From the IMG/VR virus record IMGVR_UViG_3300031707_000191, positions 1-22,766 of that record: 22,766 bases of DNA; one strand, 5' to 3'. Numbering within the stretch: position 1 is the stretch's first letter; each line of letters begins with the position of its first letter. Below the pieces are notes generated by a model. The model had not been told where the DNA came from. It worked only from the letters and a program-made list of their open reading frames with translations, and did not search any database. This document shows positions 2,808 through 21,099 of this stretch, one piece after another. Source of the stretch: a virus. The position numbers and the translations under genes were made by a program.

Positions 2808-3230
2808 ATGGCGAAGATCATGGACGTCCACAGCAAGGTGCTCGTGCACCGCTTCCTGGCTGCGAAGGCCAGGACGGCGACGGAGACCTCTACCGCCTTC
2901 GACCGCCTCGCGGCGGGCAAGGCGGTCAGCGGCCGGGCGATCCTCGTCCTGGACATGGGCGAGTTCACCACCGGCACGTGCCTCGTGTCGCTGGAGCACT
3001 GTGCGACCAGCGGCGGCGGCTACGTGCCCCTGCTCGACAAGACGGGCGCGGCGGTCGCGTTCACGGCGAAGGGCGCCACGGGCGTCTTCACGATGCCGGT
3101 GGAACTCGAACTCGCCGAGCGGTACATCAAGGCCGTGGCGACTGGCGCTTCGACGCCGGTCTATACGAACTCGGTGTACCTGATCGCTCCCGCGTCCGAC
3201 GCCGAGCCGATCACGAACCCCGCCGCGTAA
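2808..3230 (+). CDS. Putative virion protein downstream of capsid (decoration-like)
   Basis: A 140-aa protein with a strong AAGGAG site 7 bases before the ATG. I do not recognise the family. Residues 1-45 are helical and basic. The rest is rich in beta-forming residues, Gly and Thr, without membrane segments or a signal peptide, as in small capsid-decorating or stabilising proteins. Its place directly after the major capsid gene, and the strong hairpin after its stop codon, suggest a protein made in large amounts together with the capsid. The function is inferred from position and composition only; it might instead be a head-fibre base or connector component. Confidence 0.7.
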   Translation: MAKIMDVHSKVLVHRFLAAKARTATETSTAFDRLAAGKAVSGRAILVLDMGEFTTGTCLVSLEHCATSGGGYVPLLDKTGAAVAFTAKGATGVFTMPVELELAERYIKAVATGASTPVYTNSVYLIAPASDAEPITNPAA

Positions 3231-3254
3231 GGACGCGGACTCACTCGGAACCAC

Positions 3255-3289
3255 GGGGAGGCTGGTGGCCCTGCACCGCCAGCCTCCCC
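3255..3289 (+). terminator. Strong 11-bp hairpin between head genes
   Basis: Perfect inverted repeat with arms GGGGAGGCTGG (3255-3265) and CCAGCCTCCCC (3279-3289) and a 13-base loop; GGTG/CACC inside the loop can extend it with a bulge. It lies in the only sizeable gap among the head genes, 24 bases after a stop codon. There is no T-tract, so a leaky terminator, RNase barrier or mRNA-stabilising end is more likely than a full intrinsic terminator. Confidence 0.5.
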
Positions 3290-3662: not shown

Positions 3663-4541
3663 ATGCCCACCATCGTTGACGGGGTCCTCCAAGACGTCCT
3701 GAGCGTCGAAGCCCTGGTCGGCGACGTGGACCTGATCTCCACGGACGGGTCCCTCTCGTTCGTGGCGAACCCGACGGCGGAAACGCTGGACATCAAGGTA
3801 GTGGGCTTCGGTGCCGCGCCAAAGGCGACCTCGGCCATCTACGGCATCACGCGCCTCTCGGACGACCCGGCCGTGGCGCTGACCCCCATCGCGCTCGGCA
3901 CGAACAACGCGAACTGGACCACGTTGATCGGTGGCGGGGCGACCACGCTCCACAGTCACGCCCTCCCGGCGCACACGCACCCGCTCGCGGACGGGGCCTC
4001 GGACGTGACCGCCAGCGCCGCAGAGGTCAACGCTCTGGACGGCATCAGCGCCAACGTGACGTACACGAACCTGAACGCCCTGACCGGGAGTGGGTCCACG
4101 ACGCTACACACGCACAGCCACGCGGACCTCGGCAACAAGAGCGCCGACGACCATACGCAGTACGCGCTCCTGGCGGGCCGGGCCGGTGGACAGACCTTGC
4201 AGGGCGGCACCGCCGCGAGCGAGGCCTTGACCCTGGAGAGCACGGCGCACGGGACCAAGGGCGAGGTCCGCAGCGTCGGCAACCTCGTTCCCAGCGCCAC
4301 GGGCACCTATGACCTCGGCCAGAACGCGACCCCGAAGGCGTGGAAGGACCTCTGGCTCACGGGCGTCCTCAACGTCGATGGCGTCCAGGTCGTCAAGGAG
4401 CGTGAGACCGGATGGACCGCCCCGACCGGTACGGCCAGCAAGGCAGGTTACGCCGAGGGCACGGCCACGCTTACGCAGGTCGCGCAGACGCTCAAGGCGG
4501 TCGTGGACGCGCTCGTGGGCCACGGCCTGATCGGGGCGTAA
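3663..4541 (+). CDS. Head-fibre / tail-fibre-like repeat protein
   Basis: A 292-aa protein of low complexity, rich in Gly, Ala, Thr and Asn. It contains two HxH clusters (LHSHALPAHTHP near residue 100 and LHTHSH near 145), often found in trimeric phage fibres where they bind metal ions. It also has the DHTQYALLAGRAGGQTLQGG motif common in fibre and appendage proteins. The C-terminus (GWTAPTGTASKAGYAEG, then a short helix ending GLIGA) resembles the end of phage head-fibre proteins. The position between capsid and connector genes, far from the tail-tip genes, argues for a head fibre or capsid appendage rather than a tail fibre. An AGGAGG site lies just before the ATG. Confidence 0.75.
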   Translation: MPTIVDGVLQDVLSVEALVGDVDLISTDGSLSFVANPTAETLDIKVVGFGAAPKATSAIYGITRLSDDPAVALTPIALGTNNANWTTLIGGGATTLHSHALPAHTHPLADGASDVTASAAEVNALDGISANVTYTNLNALTGSGSTTLHTHSHADLGNKSADDHTQYALLAGRAGGQTLQGGTAASEALTLESTAHGTKGEVRSVGNLVPSATGTYDLGQNATPKAWKDLWLTGVLNVDGVQVVKERETGWTAPTGTASKAGYAEGTATLTQVAQTLKAVVDALVGHGLIGA

Positions 4542-4544
4542 ACC

Positions 4545-5150
4545 GTGTCCGTCGCCGAAGCCCTTGGAGACATCCCGGCCTCGCGCTCGATCGTGCGCCT
4601 CAACTCCTTCCAGGCCAAGTGCATCTGGGTGCCCGCGCACGAGATCCACCTCACGGGGAACGGCGCAGAGCCGACGAGGAATCCGACGACTGGAATGCTG
4701 GACTTCGAAGGCTCGGCGGACCAGGCCGTGAGCGGCATCCTCCAGATGCCCCACTCCTGGGCCGAAGGGACCTCCATCCTGACCTTCGTGCACTTGCGCT
4801 TCCCCACCGCGGCCGTGTCGCCGAACGCGGACAGCCGCTGGCGGATCGACGTCAGCCCTAGCGACCCCAGCGGGTCGTTCATCAGAAGCTACGGCTCGAC
4901 CACGGGCGGCACGAAGGTTACGATTGTCAACCCCAACGACGTGCTGGCACACCGCCGGGAGCAACTAACTGGCCCCTGGATGACGGCACTCAGCGCGTAC
5001 CATATCTCGCTCGGGGCGCACTGGAGTTTCAAGCGGTTCGCGGCGACCGACGTGCTGGACACGGACGCGGGGGCCATTGCCCTGCTCGGGATCATGTTCG
5101 TCTTCGGCGCGGACTCCACGGGCTCGCTCCAGACCAACCTGAAGACCTGA
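4545..5150 (+). CDS. Beta-rich virion protein, paralog 1 of a tandem pair
   Basis: A 201-aa protein starting at GTG three bases after the previous stop, with no clear ribosome site, so probably translationally coupled. It is clearly related to the next gene. Shared segments in the same order are GD(I/V)PA.R.IVR, TTGML.F.G..D, Q.PH.W.EG.S, HLRF, TNPN and TDVLDTD.G..ALL, then F.F..DS.GS. The PH-W-EG-S...H-H/LRF pattern occurs in phage virion proteins of unknown function encoded in head/neck regions. The protein is mostly beta-strand with no signal or membrane segment. A neck, whisker or capsid-surface role is inferred from context. Confidence 0.72.
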   Translation: MSVAEALGDIPASRSIVRLNSFQAKCIWVPAHEIHLTGNGAEPTRNPTTGMLDFEGSADQAVSGILQMPHSWAEGTSILTFVHLRFPTAAVSPNADSRWRIDVSPSDPSGSFIRSYGSTTGGTKVTIVNPNDVLAHRREQLTGPWMTALSAYHISLGAHWSFKRFAATDVLDTDAGAIALLGIMFVFGADSTGSLQTNLKT

Positions 5151-5159
5151 GGTGACGCC

Positions 5160-5744
5160 ATGGCAGTGAATGAGTACTTCGGCGATGTCCCGGCCAACCG
5201 CGCGATCGTGCGCGCGACCAATGCGCAGTGGGATGACCTGGCGCACTCAGCGCACGCGATCAACACGCCGGGGGCCGCCACGGACCCGGTGAAGGGCCTG
5301 ACCACGGGGATGCTCGAGTTCTCGGGCACCGTGGACAACATTCTGCCCGGCGCAAGCCAACTCCCCCACGCCTGGGAAGAAGGCTCCTCGGTCGTGCCCC
5401 ATCTGCACCTCCGGTTCTTCAACGCGGCGGCCGGGGTCAACACGCGCTGGAAGCTGGAAGTGGATGTGGCGAGTCCCAACACGGACTTCGCCAACGCCTA
5501 CGGCACGTACACGCTGCACGAGACGATCACCGTGACGAATCCCAACAACGCTGGCACCCACATCAAGGCCGAGTTCTCGGCGCTGGCGATGACGGGCAAG
5601 CTGCTCTCGACGATCATCGCCTGGCGCCTGTCGCGGATGAAGACGGACGTGCTCGACACGGACCCCGGGGTCTGCGCTCTGCTTTCCCTGGACTTCCATT
5701 TCCAGTCCGACTCGATCGGCTCGACCACTGGCATCACGAAGTAG
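5160..5744 (+). CDS. Beta-rich virion protein, paralog 2 of a tandem pair
   Basis: A 194-aa protein nine bases downstream of its paralog. It keeps all the shared blocks (GDVPANRAIVR, TTGMLEFSG, QLPHAWEEGSS, HLHLRF, TNPNN, TDVLDTDPG). The two differ mainly in the region after the N-terminal block and in the middle segment between the HLRF and TNPN motifs. The second His in HLHLRF is Val in paralog 1. The pair looks like an old tandem duplication whose products either form a hetero-oligomer or occupy different positions in the particle. The ATG follows a GGTGACGCC leader with a weak Shine-Dalgarno, again suggesting coupling. Confidence 0.72.
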   Translation: MAVNEYFGDVPANRAIVRATNAQWDDLAHSAHAINTPGAATDPVKGLTTGMLEFSGTVDNILPGASQLPHAWEEGSSVVPHLHLRFFNAAAGVNTRWKLEVDVASPNTDFANAYGTYTLHETITVTNPNNAGTHIKAEFSALAMTGKLLSTIIAWRLSRMKTDVLDTDPGVCALLSLDFHFQSDSIGSTTGITK

Positions 5745-17686: not shown

Positions 17687-17834
17687 ATTCCTGGCAGACG
17701 TTTTCGGGCCTCCACGACCCACTCCGAGACCACCCAGGACCGACTTGCTCAGGCTGGGTGCCGTGGTGCTGATGGTCCTGCTGTCGCTGGGATTCTGCCT
17801 GCTCGTCCGGTTGTGGGGGCGGGTGACCCCGTAG
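17667..17834 (+). CDS. 55-aa single-pass membrane protein
   Basis: A short gene whose GTG lies 20 bases inside the end of the previous gene, in another frame. The N-terminal half is Pro/Arg-rich (PPRPTPRPPRTD) and the second half is one membrane helix (LRLGAVVLMVLLSLGFCLLV) followed by RLWGR. The sharp separation of a proline-rich, positively charged half and a clean 20-residue hydrophobic half is not expected in a chance ORF. An AGTTGAAGGG purine-rich stretch precedes the start. With its neighbours it forms a run of three membrane-associated proteins; holin, antiholin or spanin partner are all possible. Confidence 0.6.
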   Translation: MAPTGPEFLADVFGPPRPTPRPPRTDLLRLGAVVLMVLLSLGFCLLVRLWGRVTP

Positions 17835-17870
17835 GACGGCCGGGCCACCCCTGAAAGTGGGGGGTAGGAG

Positions 17871-17920
17871 GCGTTCTGGCGTCGTCGCTGGACCCTTCGG
17901 TCCAGGAACCGCCAGAACGC
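17871..17920 (+). other. Long two-part inverted repeat (hairpin or operator)
   Basis: Outer arms GCGTTCTGGCG (17871-17881) and CGCCAGAACGC (17910-17920) are perfect 11-bp complements. Inside, CTGGACC (17888-17894) and GGTCCAG (17899-17905) form a 7-bp stem with a CTTC loop. The internal loop has 6 bases on the left and 4 on the right. It lies 36 bases after the membrane-protein cassette. No T-tract follows, so it may be an RNA 3' end, a processing site or a protein-binding palindrome. Confidence 0.6.
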
Positions 17921-17966
17921 GGCAAACGGGCCTTTCCGGCGGTTTGACGCGAGATTAGGTGAAGCG

Positions 17967-17989
17967 TTGGGTGCCCCGACCGCACCCAA
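17967..17989 (+). other. 8-bp hairpin before the AT-rich gap
   Basis: Arms TTGGGTGC (17967-17974) and GCACCCAA (17982-17989) are perfectly complementary around a 7-base loop. It separates the long inverted repeat from the AT-rich stretch and could be a terminator-like structure or part of a control region. Confidence 0.4.
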
Positions 17990-18058
17990 ACGTAACCCTA
18001 TTACAAAACATATGGATTTATCATTAGGTTTCTGCCTGGAAGGTCGTAAACTTCCCTG
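17990..18058 (+). promoter_or_regulatory. AT-rich island, possible promoter or control region
   Basis: This stretch stands out as AT-rich in a GC-rich genome (TTACAAAACATATGG, TATCATTAGG) and marks the change from tail/lysis-type genes to small genes. TATCAT at 18019-18024 could serve as a -10 box, but I see no convincing -35 at proper distance. ATTAGGT occurs here (18023-18029) and at 17954-17960. GGAAG/CTTCC can form a 5-bp hairpin near the right end. Confidence 0.3.
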
Positions 18059-18076
18059 ATGAAAAGGACGGCGAAC

Positions 18077-18130: not shown

Positions 18131-18388
18131 ATGGTCGCATTCGGAACGTGGCAGCAGGGGCGGGTCTACCGCGACGCGGTCGTGAGCGGCTGGTCGAGGA
18201 CGTGGCATCCGCAGGGCAGCGAGTCCTGGCCCTACGTGCCCAGGATTCCGTGCAGCGATGACGATGCTTTCGCCAAGTCCTGGCGACTCGTCATGCGGCA
18301 CACGGACCACGGCGTGGAGGTTAGGTGGGTGGCGCCCGGCGAACTCGTCTCGGGCTGGGTGATCGGCGTCCGTCAGGAAGGGGTCTAG
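18131..18388 (+). CDS. Hypothetical small phage protein
   Basis: An 85-aa protein. I chose the ATG at 18131 because a perfect AGGAGG lies five bases before it; the frame is open upstream to an ATG at 18059 that has no ribosome site. The protein is rich in Trp and Arg (WQQGRVYRDAVVSGWSRTWHP, SWPYVPRIPCSDDD) and ends in a compact beta-rich part (VEVRWVAPGELVSGWVIGV). I do not recognise it. It sits between two structured noncoding gaps, and the hammerhead-like RNA begins ten bases after its stop codon, so the ribozyme would form in the 3' part of its transcript. Confidence 0.6.
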   Translation: MVAFGTWQQGRVYRDAVVSGWSRTWHPQGSESWPYVPRIPCSDDDAFAKSWRLVMRHTDHGVEVRWVAPGELVSGWVIGVRQEGV

Positions 18389-18397
18389 GCGTGCGGA

Positions 18398-18474
18398 GGG
18401 GCAGCCGCCCCTGATGAGGCCCCGGCAGGGGCCGAAACCCTGGGCGGCCAGGGTAGGGCAAGCACAACGGCCCC
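18398..18474 (+). ncRNA. Hammerhead self-cleaving ribozyme, type I
   Basis: All core elements of a hammerhead are present in the right order. CTGATGA is at 18411-18417. Stem II follows: GGCCCC (18418-18423), loop GGCA, GGGGCC (18428-18433), with the conserved G-C first pair. GAAA is at 18434-18437. Stem III is CCCTGG/CCAGGG (18438-18443, 18448-18453) closed by GCGG and extended by the A-T pair of GAAA and the following T18454. H17 is A18455. Stem I pairs GCCC (18407-18410) with GGGC (18456-18459), continues after an internal loop with GGGGC (18398-18402) pairing GCCCC (18470-18474), and is open to flanking sequence, hence type I. Cleavage is predicted between 18455 and 18456. The internal loop of stem I could contact loop II, as in natural fast hammerheads. 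The catalytic G8 and G12 equivalents are intact. Confidence 0.85.
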
Positions 18475-18508
18475 GGAGGGGGCGGGAGAGAAACAGGACT
18501 GCGGCATG

Positions 18509-18542
18509 GCCTGCGATCCCCCACCTCCATGGTGGTGCAGGC
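18509..18542 (+). other. Recurrent 6/1-loop hairpin, copy A
   Basis: Outer arms GCCTGC (18509-18514) and GCAGGC (18537-18542); six unpaired bases GATCCC on the 5' side; inner arms CCACC (18521-18525) and GGTGG (18531-18535); loop TCCAT; one unpaired T (18536) on the 3' side. It lies in the leader of the gene at 18622, downstream of the predicted ribozyme cut. Three other hairpins in the next 1.6 kb share the same layout. Confidence 0.55.
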
Positions 18543-18546
18543 TGGG

Positions 18547-18569
18547 CGGTCCGGGGTGTGCCCGGACCG
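18547..18569 (+). other. 9-bp hairpin in the leader of the gene at 18622
   Basis: Arms CGGTCCGGG (18547-18555) and CCCGGACCG (18561-18569) are perfect complements with loop GTGTG. It lies 52 bases before the start codon of the next gene. Without a T-tract it is more likely a stabilising or regulatory element than a terminator. Confidence 0.5.
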
Positions 18570-18621
18570 GCGGACGGGGGAGGCGAGGGGCCGCGCCCAT
18601 CACGGCCCGACAGGAGATCCC

Positions 18622-19011
18622 ATGAGCACACAGACGACACAGCGGACGATCACGCTCACCGGCCGGGCACCGGTGAGGATCACGGACGCGGCGTGGCCGG
18701 TGATCGCCTCGGCGAGGGCCGACAGCTATCAGTCCCCGGACTACTCGCGCCATCAGCAGGCCCTCGCGGGAGGCGAACTGGACCGGTACACCCTCCGCGT
18801 GCGCCGGCACGCGGACGGCTGGACCCTGGTGTACGGAATCCTCAGTGGGGCTAGGGCGTGGACGGGGACCGAGGACCGCCGCGGGGGCGTGCTCCTCGAA
18901 GACGGCGATGACGTGGCCGCCGCGTGCGCGCGCGTGGGCCGGGATGTCGGGCTCCCGGACTCAGTGATCCGCGAGTGCGTCGCGGACCTCCCGGTCGAGG
19001 ACATCGGGTAG
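18622..19011 (+). CDS. Conserved-type phage hypothetical protein
   Basis: A 129-aa protein with CAGGAG five bases before the ATG. The pattern TITLTGRAPVRITDAAWPVIASA, RYTLRVRRHADGWTLVYGI, and RRGGVLLEDGDDVAAAC with the end ECVADLPVEDIG matches a small protein family that I know from other phage genomes but whose function is not established. It begins with beta strands around a Trp and ends with helices. It stands alone between the hammerhead-like RNA (18398-18474) and the twister-like element (19078-19130), so self-cleavage at both sites would release its mRNA as a separate piece. Confidence 0.75.
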   Translation: MSTQTTQRTITLTGRAPVRITDAAWPVIASARADSYQSPDYSRHQQALAGGELDRYTLRVRRHADGWTLVYGILSGARAWTGTEDRRGGVLLEDGDDVAAACARVGRDVGLPDSVIRECVADLPVEDIG

Positions 19012-19077
19012 TGACGGGGTGGAGGAACTAGCCGTGGAACACGCACACACACCTAGGCGAGGGCGGTGGGGGCATCC

Positions 19078-19130
19078 CCGCCGTAAACCGCAAGGCCGGT
19101 CCCAAGCCCGGCCTGGAAGGAGGACGGTGG
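19078..19130 (+). ncRNA. Twister-like structured RNA (candidate)
   Basis: CCGCCG (19078-19083) can pair with CGGTGG (19125-19130, one G-T pair) as P1. It is followed by TAA (19084-19086), where twister RNAs cleave between T and A. A hairpin with arms AGGCCGG (19093-19099) and CCGGCCT (19108-19114) holds a loop containing CCCAAG (19101-19106). The 17 bases at 19095-19111 agree with the P4/L4 hairpin of a type P1 twister as I recall it. GGAGG (19119-19123) could pair with loop bases as the T1 pseudoknot. However the usual A-rich bases after P4 are absent and P2 is weak. The 3' part coincides with the ribosome site and start of the next gene. Hairpin certain, twister identity uncertain. Confidence 0.38.
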
Positions 19131-19516
19131 ACGCGAACATTCATGAGACGGTGCTCGGTAGAGTGGCCTGCGCCTGGCAGGCGGTGGTGACGGTTCGTCC
19201 GGGAGGGGCCTTCGTCGAGGTGGCAAAGGTCGTGGACGGCGTGGAGGTGGAGGCCGTCACCTTGTTCTGCCACGAGTCGAGGGCGCAACTCGCGGCCGAA
19301 CTGGCGCGGGCGGCGAGGGAGTTGGCGGGAGACCTCCCGGCGACGAGGCCGGGCGGAATGTGGGCCTGCCCGCGCTGCTCGGCCACCGTGACCGACATCA
19401 CCCTGTGCCGGGACTGCCACCACGAGATCGGCACGGACTGCCGGTGCGCGGTCGAGGTCGAGGGCACGGAGGAGTTGTCCTGCGACGAGTGCGCGTCGAT
19501 GAAGGATGTCCGGTGA
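19127..19516 (+). CDS. Multi-Cys zinc-binding protein
   Basis: A 129-aa protein from the GTG at 19127, preceded by AAGGAGG. An in-frame GTG at 19019 lacks a ribosome site, and the extension would be the basic, repetitive peptide encoded by the structured leader, so I rejected it. The N-terminal 70 residues contain strands (AWQAVVTVRPGGAFVEVAKVV) and a helix (RAQLAAELARAARELAG). The C-terminal part is a zinc-binding region: CPRC at 81-84, CRDC at 94-97, CRC at 105-107 and CDEC at 119-122. That is enough for two zinc ions. A DNA- or RNA-binding or protein-interaction role is plausible but not shown. The stop overlaps the next start (GTGA). Confidence 0.7.
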   Translation: MDANIHETVLGRVACAWQAVVTVRPGGAFVEVAKVVDGVEVEAVTLFCHESRAQLAAELARAARELAGDLPATRPGGMWACPRCSATVTDITLCRDCHHEIGTDCRCAVEVEGTEELSCDECASMKDVR

Positions 19517-19626
19517 TCCCCCCTGCCGTCTGGCTGGACAGGGCGCTCCTCGCGCTGGCTGGCGTCGCGCTACTGGTGGCCTGCGTGGGCCTTTGCATTT
19601 TGTGGTGCCGTAATGTCATGCTATAA
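19513..19626 (+). CDS. 37-aa single-pass membrane protein
   Basis: A short gene translationally coupled to the zinc protein through GTGA. It encodes MIPPAVWLDR followed by one strong membrane helix (ALLALAGVALLVACVGLCIL) and a short WCRNVML tail with three Cys in the second half of the protein. The hydrophobic profile and the stop-start overlap support expression; the function is unknown. Its last codons overlap the -10 box of the promoter candidate below. Confidence 0.5.
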   Translation: MIPPAVWLDRALLALAGVALLVACVGLCILWCRNVML

Positions 19627-19627
19627 T
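19600..19627 (+). promoter_or_regulatory. Sigma70-type promoter with perfect extended -10
   Basis: TATAAT at 19622-19627 is preceded by TGC (extended -10) and by TTGTGG at 19600-19605 with a 16-base spacer. Perfect TATAAT boxes are rare in this GC-rich genome. Transcription would start near 19634, just ahead of the AGGAGG of the next gene. ATGTCATGC occurs at 19613-19621 and again at 19641-19649, a 28-base spaced repeat that could be a repressor site. Confidence 0.55.
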
Positions 19628-19645
19628 GCCATGCAGGAGGATGTC

Positions 19646-19849: not shown

Positions 19850-19860
19850 CACCGGGCCAG

Positions 19861-19893
19861 GGCCGCGTGTCCCCACGTGCGCGTGGTGCGGCC
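19861..19893 (+). other. Recurrent 6/1-loop hairpin, copy B
   Basis: Outer arms GGCCGC (19861-19866) and GCGGCC (19888-19893); six unpaired bases GTGTCC; inner arms CCACG (19873-19877) and CGTGG (19882-19886); loop TGCG; one unpaired T at 19887. It starts 12 bases after a stop codon and lies in the leader of the 20-codon ORF at 19948. Confidence 0.55.
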
Positions 19894-19947
19894 TGCCAGC
19901 GGTAGGGGGCGTACCCCGAGGCTGCAACGGGGCGAAGGAGTGCAGTG

Positions 19948-20010
19948 ATGAGCGGGTTCCAGAAGGCCGCGCCGAAGCAGGCGAAGCTCAAGGTCACGCT
20001 CAAGAAGTAG
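19948..20010 (+). CDS. 20-aa mini-ORF resembling an ATPase N-terminus
   Basis: ATG to TAG with AAGGAG seven bases before the start. The basic peptide (MSGFQKAAPKQ..., ending LKK) resembles the N-terminus of many phage AAA_24/Sak4-type ATPases, in which a similar stretch is followed directly by the Walker A loop. Here it stops before any Walker motif, while a complete ATPase with a different N-terminus begins 144 bases later. It may be a decayed duplicate, a leader peptide for translational control, or a true microprotein. Confidence 0.4.
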   Translation: MSGFQKAAPKQAKLKVTLKK

Positions 20011-20023
20011 GCCCGCGAGGGCC
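20010..20023 (+). other. GNRA-loop hairpin at the mini-ORF stop
   Basis: Arms GGCCC (20010-20014) and GGGCC (20019-20023) with a GCGA tetraloop begin on the last base of the stop codon. The compact stable loop could act as a translational or transcriptional 3' boundary of the mini-ORF. Confidence 0.45.
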
Positions 20024-20025
20024 TT

Positions 20026-20062
20026 GGCCCGCAAGCTCCCGACCTCCACGTCGGTGCGGGCC
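20026..20062 (+). other. Recurrent 6/1-loop hairpin, copy C
   Basis: Outer arms GGCCCGC (20026-20032) and GCGGGCC (20056-20062); six bases AAGCTC on the 5' side; inner arms CCGAC (20039-20043) and GTCGG (20050-20054); loop CTCCAC; one T at 20055. The first bulge A may instead pair with this T, giving an 8-bp outer stem and a 5/0 bulge. It lies in the leader of the ATPase gene. Confidence 0.55.
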
Positions 20063-20092
20063 GGGCGGTGCGCCGGTCGTTCCGGTGCCCGG
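20061..20092 (+). other. Recurrent 6/1-loop hairpin, copy D
   Basis: Outer arms CCGGGC (20061-20066) and GCCCGG (20087-20092); six bases GGTGCG; inner arms CCGG (20073-20076) and CCGG (20082-20085); loop TCGTT; one T at 20086. Its outer arm overlaps copy C by two bases, so with both formed copy D keeps a 4-bp outer stem. A competing stem CGCCGG/CCGGCG (20071-20076, 20089-20094) is possible. Confidence 0.45.
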
Positions 20093-20154
20093 CGGACGGG
20101 AGCGAAGCGCACGACCTGGGGAGTCCCCGGGGGAGGGCGCAGAGGGAGAGGGAG

Positions 20155-21099
20155 ATGGCTGGATCGAAGCTGAAGGCGCGGCCCCCGGTGGCCGCGGAGA
20201 TGGGGAGGACGAAGGCGGTTGCCTTCGGTCCTCCGGGGAGCGGCAAGACGTGGCTCGCCTTGTCGTTCCCGTCGCCGTACTACATCGACACGGAGAGCGG
20301 GGCGGCCCTGGCGCACTACCAGGAGCGGCTGAAGGCGAGCGGTGGCGTGTACTTCGGGCGCGACGAGGGGAGCCTGGACCCGGCGACGGTGCTGGATCAG
20401 GTCGAAGCCCTGGCGACCGAGAAGCACTCCTATCGCACGCTCGTCATCGACAGCGTGAGCAAGCTGATCGGGACGATCACCGCACGAGAGCAGGACAGGC
20501 TCGGTGACAAGGATGCCTTCGGGGCTTCCAAGAAGCCGGGGCTCGTGTTCCTCCGCAGGCTCGGGATGTGGCTCGACCGGCTGGACATGAACGTCTGGCT
20601 GGTCGCCCACGAGACGAGCAAGTGGGAGGGTGCGGGCAACGACCGCAGGGAGGTCGGTCAGGTGCCGGACCTCTGGGAGAAGATGGTCCACGACCTGGAC
20701 CTGACGCTCCAGGTGCGGCGGATCGGCAAGGGCCTCCGCGAGGCCACGATCCACAAGTCCCGCCTGCTGTCGTTTCCGGAGGCGGACAGGTTCTACCTCC
20801 AGAAGGAAGGGCAGGATCAGGCGTACGCGACGTTCACCGAGCGGTGGAACCGCGACCGCATCGAGGCCGTCGCGATCCAGGTCAAGTTGGCGAGCGCCGA
20901 GGACTGCTCGCGGGTCCGCGCACTGCTGGAGGTCGTCCGCATCGCGCCCGAGGAGATCGAGCGGTGGATGGCCAAGGCGAACGTGGAGACGTGGGAGGAG
21001 ATGACGGCCGAGCAGATCTGCAAGGTCGTCGGGCATCTCCAGGCGAAGATCCCCCAGGCGGCGGCAACGACGAAGGTCGAGAAGGGAGCGAAGTCGTGA
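20155..21099 (+). CDS. RecA-fold ATPase of AAA_24 / Sak4-like type
   Basis: A 314-aa protein with Walker A GPPGSGKT at residues 25-32, an IDTESGA strand near 44-50, Walker B TLVIDSVSKL at 95-104, and a sensor-like WLVAHETSKW segment further on. The overall pattern matches phage ATP-binding proteins of the AAA_24/Sak4 group, which are RecA-like and act in single-strand annealing or recombination, usually next to an SSB gene. The following gene looks like SSB, which fits. The C-terminal 80 residues are helical and charged. The ATG at 20155 has purine-rich GAGGGAG sequence upstream; extension to 20068 is possible but would translate the structured leader. The stop overlaps the next start. Confidence 0.85.
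   Translation: MAGSKLKARPPVAAEMGRTKAVAFGPPGSGKTWLALSFPSPYYIDTESGAALAHYQERLKASGGVYFGRDEGSLDPATVLDQVEALATEKHSYRTLVIDSVSKLIGTITAREQDRLGDKDAFGASKKPGLVFLRRLGMWLDRLDMNVWLVAHETSKWEGAGNDRREVGQVPDLWEKMVHDLDLTLQVRRIGKGLREATIHKSRLLSFPEADRFYLQKEGQDQAYATFTERWNRDRIEAVAIQVKLASAEDCSRVRALLEVVRIAPEEIERWMAKANVETWEEMTAEQICKVVGHLQAKIPQAAATTKVEKGAKS

Follow-up and report, generated by a model that had tools for sequence, protein, structure and literature searches.

The stretch of viral DNA analysed here, 22,766 nt long and hereafter called the window (positions 1 to 22,766 of the IMG/VR virus record IMGVR_UViG_3300031707_000191), carries a type I hammerhead ribozyme at 18398-18474. In our reading this hammerhead is probably one member of a mixed array (hammerhead, hepatitis delta virus (HDV)-like, twister-P5 and again HDV-like) that cuts a multi-gene message between its genes, the fold used in any one gap being interchangeable. 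The presence of at least four ribozymes of three unrelated folds in these gaps suggests that the virus splits a long message into single-gene messages by RNA and not by proteins. The observations behind this reading are the ribozyme sequences themselves, their matches to known folds, their positions in the gaps and their recurrence in other phages. The RNA elements concerned are the following.

18398-18474, + strand: hammerhead region, with 18398-18402/18470-18474 as the putative outer part of stem I; direct reading, the outer part as complementarity only
18407-18459, + strand: type I hammerhead core; held-out covariance model, 0 in 2000 simulated windows
18397-18412, + strand: competing hairpin A (AGGGGC AGCC GCCCCU), in which the 5' strand of stem I is tied up; pair probabilities and minimum-energy fold
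18506-18583, + strand: HDV-like ribozyme 1; Rfam RF00094 39.8 bits (cut-off 50), E value 2.6e-6 per record, and nested double-pseudoknot descriptor
19056-19111, + strand: type P5 twister ribozyme; RF02684 53.5 bits (cut-off 37.6), E value 9.6e-9
20024-20105, + strand: HDV-like ribozyme 2; RF00094 36.8 bits (cut-off 50), E value 9.6e-6 per record, and descriptor

The hammerhead and its class

Read directly, the hammerhead has CUGAUGA at C3-A9 (18411-18417), a 6-bp stem II (18418-18423/18428-18433) with a GGCA loop, G12-A14 at 18434-18436 within a GAAA at 18434-18437, and a 7-bp stem III (18437-18443/18448-18454) that includes the A15.1-U16.1 pair. H17 is A18455, at the end of the NUH triplet GUA (18453-18455), and the predicted cut lies between 18455 and 18456. 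Stem I has 4 bp (18407-18410/18456-18459) and is open-ended, which is the type I topology. All three stems are perfect, with 17 of 17 base pairs and every core position intact, exactly as the original prediction of a full core between stems of 4, 6 and 7 bp had it. The same prediction held a chance match to be unlikely, and the backgrounds bear this out: a type I descriptor (stems of at least 3, 4 and 4 bp) gave one match in the window versus none in 2000 first-order-Markov simulated windows, although the latter contained 3768 CTGATGA cores, and 1.52 Mb of shuffled loci yielded no match to a wider descriptor that admits each of the three hammerhead types. As a sequence, the hammerhead is confirmed as real and far from chance. 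The additional 5-bp outer part of stem I that had been proposed stands in so far as 18398-18402 and 18470-18474 are complementary; however, hairpin A takes up the same 5' bases and is energetically preferred.

The test first suggested for this site, a search of the region with the Rfam type I model, failed: Hammerhead_1 (RF00163, gathering score 34 bits) does not match the window hammerhead at E values up to 10. The likely reason is that it belongs to a subgroup that, like many phage hammerheads, combines 4 bp in stem I with 6 bp in stem II. The Rfam type III model did match at 18378-18443 (27.7 bits, cut-off 48.5), and this match was rejected as mis-threaded, since it borrows its 5' strand from the upstream open reading frame (ORF) and omits the true stem III partner and the cut site. 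We gathered hammerheads from viral contigs by DNA pattern and examined 141 loci, 111 of which hold complete hammerheads, and the window hammerhead falls within a subgroup in which stem I has 4-5 bp and stem II at least 5 bp. A covariance model (R1) built from 30 phage type I hammerheads of this subgroup, with the window hammerhead excluded, scores it at 51.9 bits (E value 9.4e-17), the next match in the window reaching 12.1 bits, and it is this held-out model that supports the type I identity first proposed. Sequence and structure thus place the site among the phage type I hammerheads, in the group that combines a short stem I with a long stem II. The pair counts obtained from alignment A2 were not accepted as independent evidence, because the same pairings had served to choose its members.

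HDV-like and twister ribozymes in the neighbouring gaps

In HDV-like ribozyme 1, P1 is formed by 18508-18514/18537-18543 with a terminal G-U and P2 by about 18517-18522/18576-18581, and cleavage is predicted at 18507|18508. Its counterpart further downstream, HDV-like ribozyme 2, has P1 at 20026-20032/20056-20062 and P2 at 20035-20040/20098-20103, with a predicted cut at 20025|20026. The two RNAs build P1, P2, P3 and P4 from different base pairs, and in both L3 is able to form P1.1 and the J4/2 C is kept. The strict double-pseudoknot descriptor has a background of 22 matches per 100 simulated windows. Between them lies the twister-P5 RNA, for which a cut at 19084|19085 (U|A) may be placed by analogy with published twister cleavage.

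All four ribozymes are on the + strand and all sit in gaps, although the intergenic share of the window is 6.1% by our own gene calls. The gap between the stop at 18388 and the start at 18622 holds the hammerhead and HDV-like ribozyme 1, the gap 19011-19127 holds the twister, and HDV-like ribozyme 2 lies in the gap 20010-20155; the starts downstream of these gaps have good ribosome-binding sites. This is the arrangement by which prophage ribozyme arrays are recognised, with several same-strand ribozymes in the gaps along a run of small genes. The guess in the original prediction that this is a possible RNA-processing region is strengthened by the finding of two HDV-like RNAs and a twister-P5 RNA in the same or neighbouring gaps.

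It could be argued that the four RNAs are regulatory structures or transcript-end hairpins that merely look like ribozymes and do not cut, since the resemblance is one of sequence, both HDV-like matches score under the curated cut-off and GC-rich sequence folds strongly regardless. However, the unpaired catalytic letters are kept as well (CUGAUGA and GAAA in the hammerhead, the J4/2 C-A in the HDV-like RNAs and CCCAAGCCCG in the twister), and a need for hairpins would leave three unrelated catalytic folds in one operon unexplained, so that we find this account quite improbable. The two predicted cuts in the gap 18388-18622 also raise the idea that the hammerhead and HDV-like ribozyme 1 work as a pair to release a 52-nt RNA (18456-18507) instead of separating messages, as the piece would carry a 5'-hydroxyl and a cyclic phosphate, ends that can be circularised. 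Such a role appears highly improbable: the piece matches no known RNA family, and elsewhere in the array a gap has one ribozyme only, which is also the case in three further phage records described below (G001, G067 and L150).

Ribozymes in other phage records

Arrays of this kind recur in unrelated phages. The record IMGVR_UViG_3300017821_000005 (G001) contains three such RNAs, one in each of three successive gaps: HDV-F-prausnitzii-like at 2506-2576 (42.4 bits, cut-off 44), twister-P5 at 2915-2973 (55.2 bits) and minimal HDV-like at 3205-3261. Each of them immediately precedes a Shine-Dalgarno (SD) sequence and lies 17-27 nt ahead of the next start codon. In IMGVR_UViG_3300047160_020355 (G067) the order is ORF, twister-P5, ORF, hammerhead variant, ORF, the variant having CUGACGA (37.1 bits, E value 6e-11), and in IMGVR_UViG_3300020042_006270 (L150) four hammerheads occupy four successive gaps. 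A set of 131 viral hammerheads was compared with random points: 1.5% of the hammerheads and 33% of the points fall inside ORFs of at least 100 aa, and an SD start is found within 40 nt of 43% and 8%, respectively. The placement is similar for twisters: an improved pattern yielded 11 loci, and 7 of these 11 phage twister-P5 RNAs sit 16-44 nt ahead of an SD start. A first twister pattern had mostly returned chance matches in coding DNA, only L040 being real.

Mixed arrays are nevertheless not the rule: 48 hammerhead records lacked a twister-P5 and 45 records lacked an HDV match, in searches that had no positive control giving a match. An HDV pattern scan of bacterial genomes returned a single match, judged to be chance.

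Some further loci were seen in viral records. Two other gaps of G001 (also listed as L026), 3931-4023 and 5121-5193, lie before an SD and start in the same placement as the ribozymes of that record, and share an identical 39-nt stretch (containing GAGCGCAGCACTACGGCTGCAAAATCCTAGGAGGA) behind a hairpin whose sequence differs and whose pairing is kept in both. Rfam gives no convincing match for either gap, and the shared element is possibly a ribozyme or regulatory RNA of unknown kind. In another phage record, the locus L006 (G002) has an HDV-like ribozyme closely ahead of a start codon (2334-2407, 35.8 bits with RF00094). A hammerhead variant in L168 (4728-4792) has CUGACGA, an additional U in front of stem II and a core that overlaps the stop codon of the upstream ORF. 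Finally, about 2.4 kb of the viral contig L098 (544-2939, - strand) contain five hammerheads of type I, and for four of these an SD start follows at 23-34 nt.

Does the hammerhead fold, and what would the array do?

Several observations weigh against the reading of the hammerhead as a cutting member of a mixed array. In the energy calculation hairpin A (18397-18402/18407-18412) is favoured; it overlaps the 5' bases of stem I and of its outer part, and in the natural context stem I has a probability of 0.0-0.02, rising to about 0.8-0.9 once the 5' arm of hairpin A is removed and the 3' end kept short. A second point concerns the pairing of loop II with the 3' flank, a contact that has at least 3 bp in 25 of 35 subgroup members (500 permutations: mean 16.2, maximum 23) and only 2 bp in the window hammerhead, with 3 bp possible when the 5' flank is used instead. 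Hammerheads with a stem I of at least 6 bp show no excess of this contact, unlike the subgroup with 4-5 bp. Both HDV-like RNAs fall under the RF00094 gathering score of 50, and for that reason we call them HDV-like and not members of the Rfam family. Close relatives of the window phage were looked for and none was found: a search of viral contigs gave no relatives of the neighbouring 129-aa ORF or of the capsid protein, and the three distant relatives of the ATPase gave no Rfam match in the stretches fetched. That the RNAs cleave, that the genes are co-transcribed and that message stability is affected is what we infer.

On the folding evidence, the window hammerhead may be weak, decayed or conditional. 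If decayed, it would be the relic of an active phage hammerhead, trapped in hairpin A, with the HDV-like and twister ribozymes doing the cutting. The hairpin that out-competes stem I and the 2-bp loop II contact both fit such a history, as does HDV-like ribozyme 1, which shares the gap and whose predicted cut, 52 nt downstream, could make the hammerhead redundant. An intact core with all 17 base pairs is not expected of a relic, however, and other phage hammerheads, some of the L150 array among them, have comparable or larger energy gaps (4-10 kcal/mol); stem I exceeds a probability of 0.5 in only 33 of 103 phage hammerheads. Because similar gaps are found there, the poor stem I of the window hammerhead calls for caution and does not refute it, and we regard decay as rather unlikely.

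If conditional, the hammerhead could be gated by translation of the upstream ORF, the unrelated folds being exchangeable cutting cassettes in this case too. With a ribosome terminating at the stop codon of that ORF (18386-18388), the 5' arm of hairpin A would be covered and stem I set free, and the cut would be permitted only after the upstream gene had been read. We rate this elaboration as improbable.

Under the reading that we favour, in which the whole mixed array cuts, the operon would be transcribed as one RNA and each ribozyme would cut between genes. The hammerhead and twister cuts would leave stable hairpins on the 3' end of the upstream message, and the HDV-like cuts would leave the folded ribozyme on the 5' end of the downstream one. 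Hammerhead, twister and HDV-like ribozymes all cleave to give 5'-hydroxyl and 2',3'-cyclic-phosphate ends. Such ends would probably alter the decay of each message and the expression level of each gene, and the stability of each message would thereby be set separately.

Genes and other features around the array

The genes that border the ribozymes, together with a further candidate, are listed here.

18131-18388, + strand: small ORF upstream of the hammerhead, 85 aa, SD AGGAGGT; ORF and SD inspection, the stop ends 18 nt before stem I
18622-19011, + strand: ORF of 129 aa downstream of the hammerhead and HDV-like ribozyme 1; ORF and SD inspection, no Pfam family
19127-19516, + strand: ORF of 129 aa that begins with GTG, 15 nt downstream of the twister; ORF and SD inspection, no Pfam family
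19860-19937, + strand: weak third HDV-like candidate with a 7-bp P1 (GGGCCGC/GCGGCCU); relaxed descriptor only, in the gap before a 20-aa ORF
20155-21099, + strand: AAA ATPase (AAA_24), 49 nt after HDV-like ribozyme 2; Pfam PF13479, E value 1.8e-17

The ATPase at 20155-21099 is presumably comparable to Sak4. The candidate at 19860-19937 has altered L3 and P1.1 letters; it is indistinguishable from the background of the relaxed descriptor (about 20 matches per window), has no Rfam match and is retained as a lead only. The gap 19517-19645 contains a terminator-like hairpin (19578-19591) and a TATAAT at about 19622, and owing to these the array may span two transcripts. Preceding the array is a strongly structured non-coding gap with long hairpins (17835-17995); the interval 17830-18060 has a fold z-score of -3.4. 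The gap gives way to AT-rich sequence at about 18000-18060, and an Rfam search of 17835-17995 gave no match. No tRNA was found in the window.

Comparison with known systems

The window hammerhead has the type I topology and core of Rfam Hammerhead_1 (RF00163) and differs in going undetected by that model; its stems I and II have 4 and 6 bp. Theta ribozymes (Kienbeck et al. 2024, PMC10879173) are HDV-like ribozymes of gut phages that adjoin phage tRNAs and are associated with transcript processing. Those of the window are likewise HDV-like and in a phage; however, theta ribozymes are minimal and located at tRNAs, whereas the window RNAs have a P4 and precede protein genes in a stretch where we found no tRNA. 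The HDV-like RNA at 3205 in G001 has no P4, unlike the two in the window.

Twister ribozymes near hammerheads and phage genes have been reported (Roth 2014 and Weinberg 2015, cited in PMC5408937, PMC4604425 and PMC6155905), and it has already been suggested that unlike folds can serve one function. In the open-licence literature we found no description of HDV-like ribozymes in one phage operon with a hammerhead or twister, nor of a phage operon in which the fold changes from one gap to the next. The hammerhead adds to a known type, and hammerhead arrays and twister-hammerhead neighbours are already published; the part that we did not find described is the mixing of HDV-like ribozymes into the array.

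According to reviews, the role of self-cleaving ribozymes in phages and bacteria is an open question (PMC6155905, PMC5408937). If our reading is true, three unrelated folds in the same position of one operon imply that the selected trait must be the cut and its chemical ends and not the fold, and the message-processing idea becomes directly testable. It would also provide a search rule, namely to seek new ribozyme classes in the gaps beside the known ribozymes of such operons.

The closest precedent is provided by the hammerhead arrays of prophages, which flank single prophage genes and for which the processing of long transcripts was proposed (Perreault et al. 2011, PMC3088659); these arrays cleave in vitro, and cleavage in E. 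coli was shown for the A. tumefaciens array (PMC3088659). The window resembles those prophages in having several same-strand ribozymes that flank small phage genes one by one. The prophage arrays were described as consisting of hammerheads throughout, whereas the window array mixes hammerhead, HDV-like and twister-P5 ribozymes.
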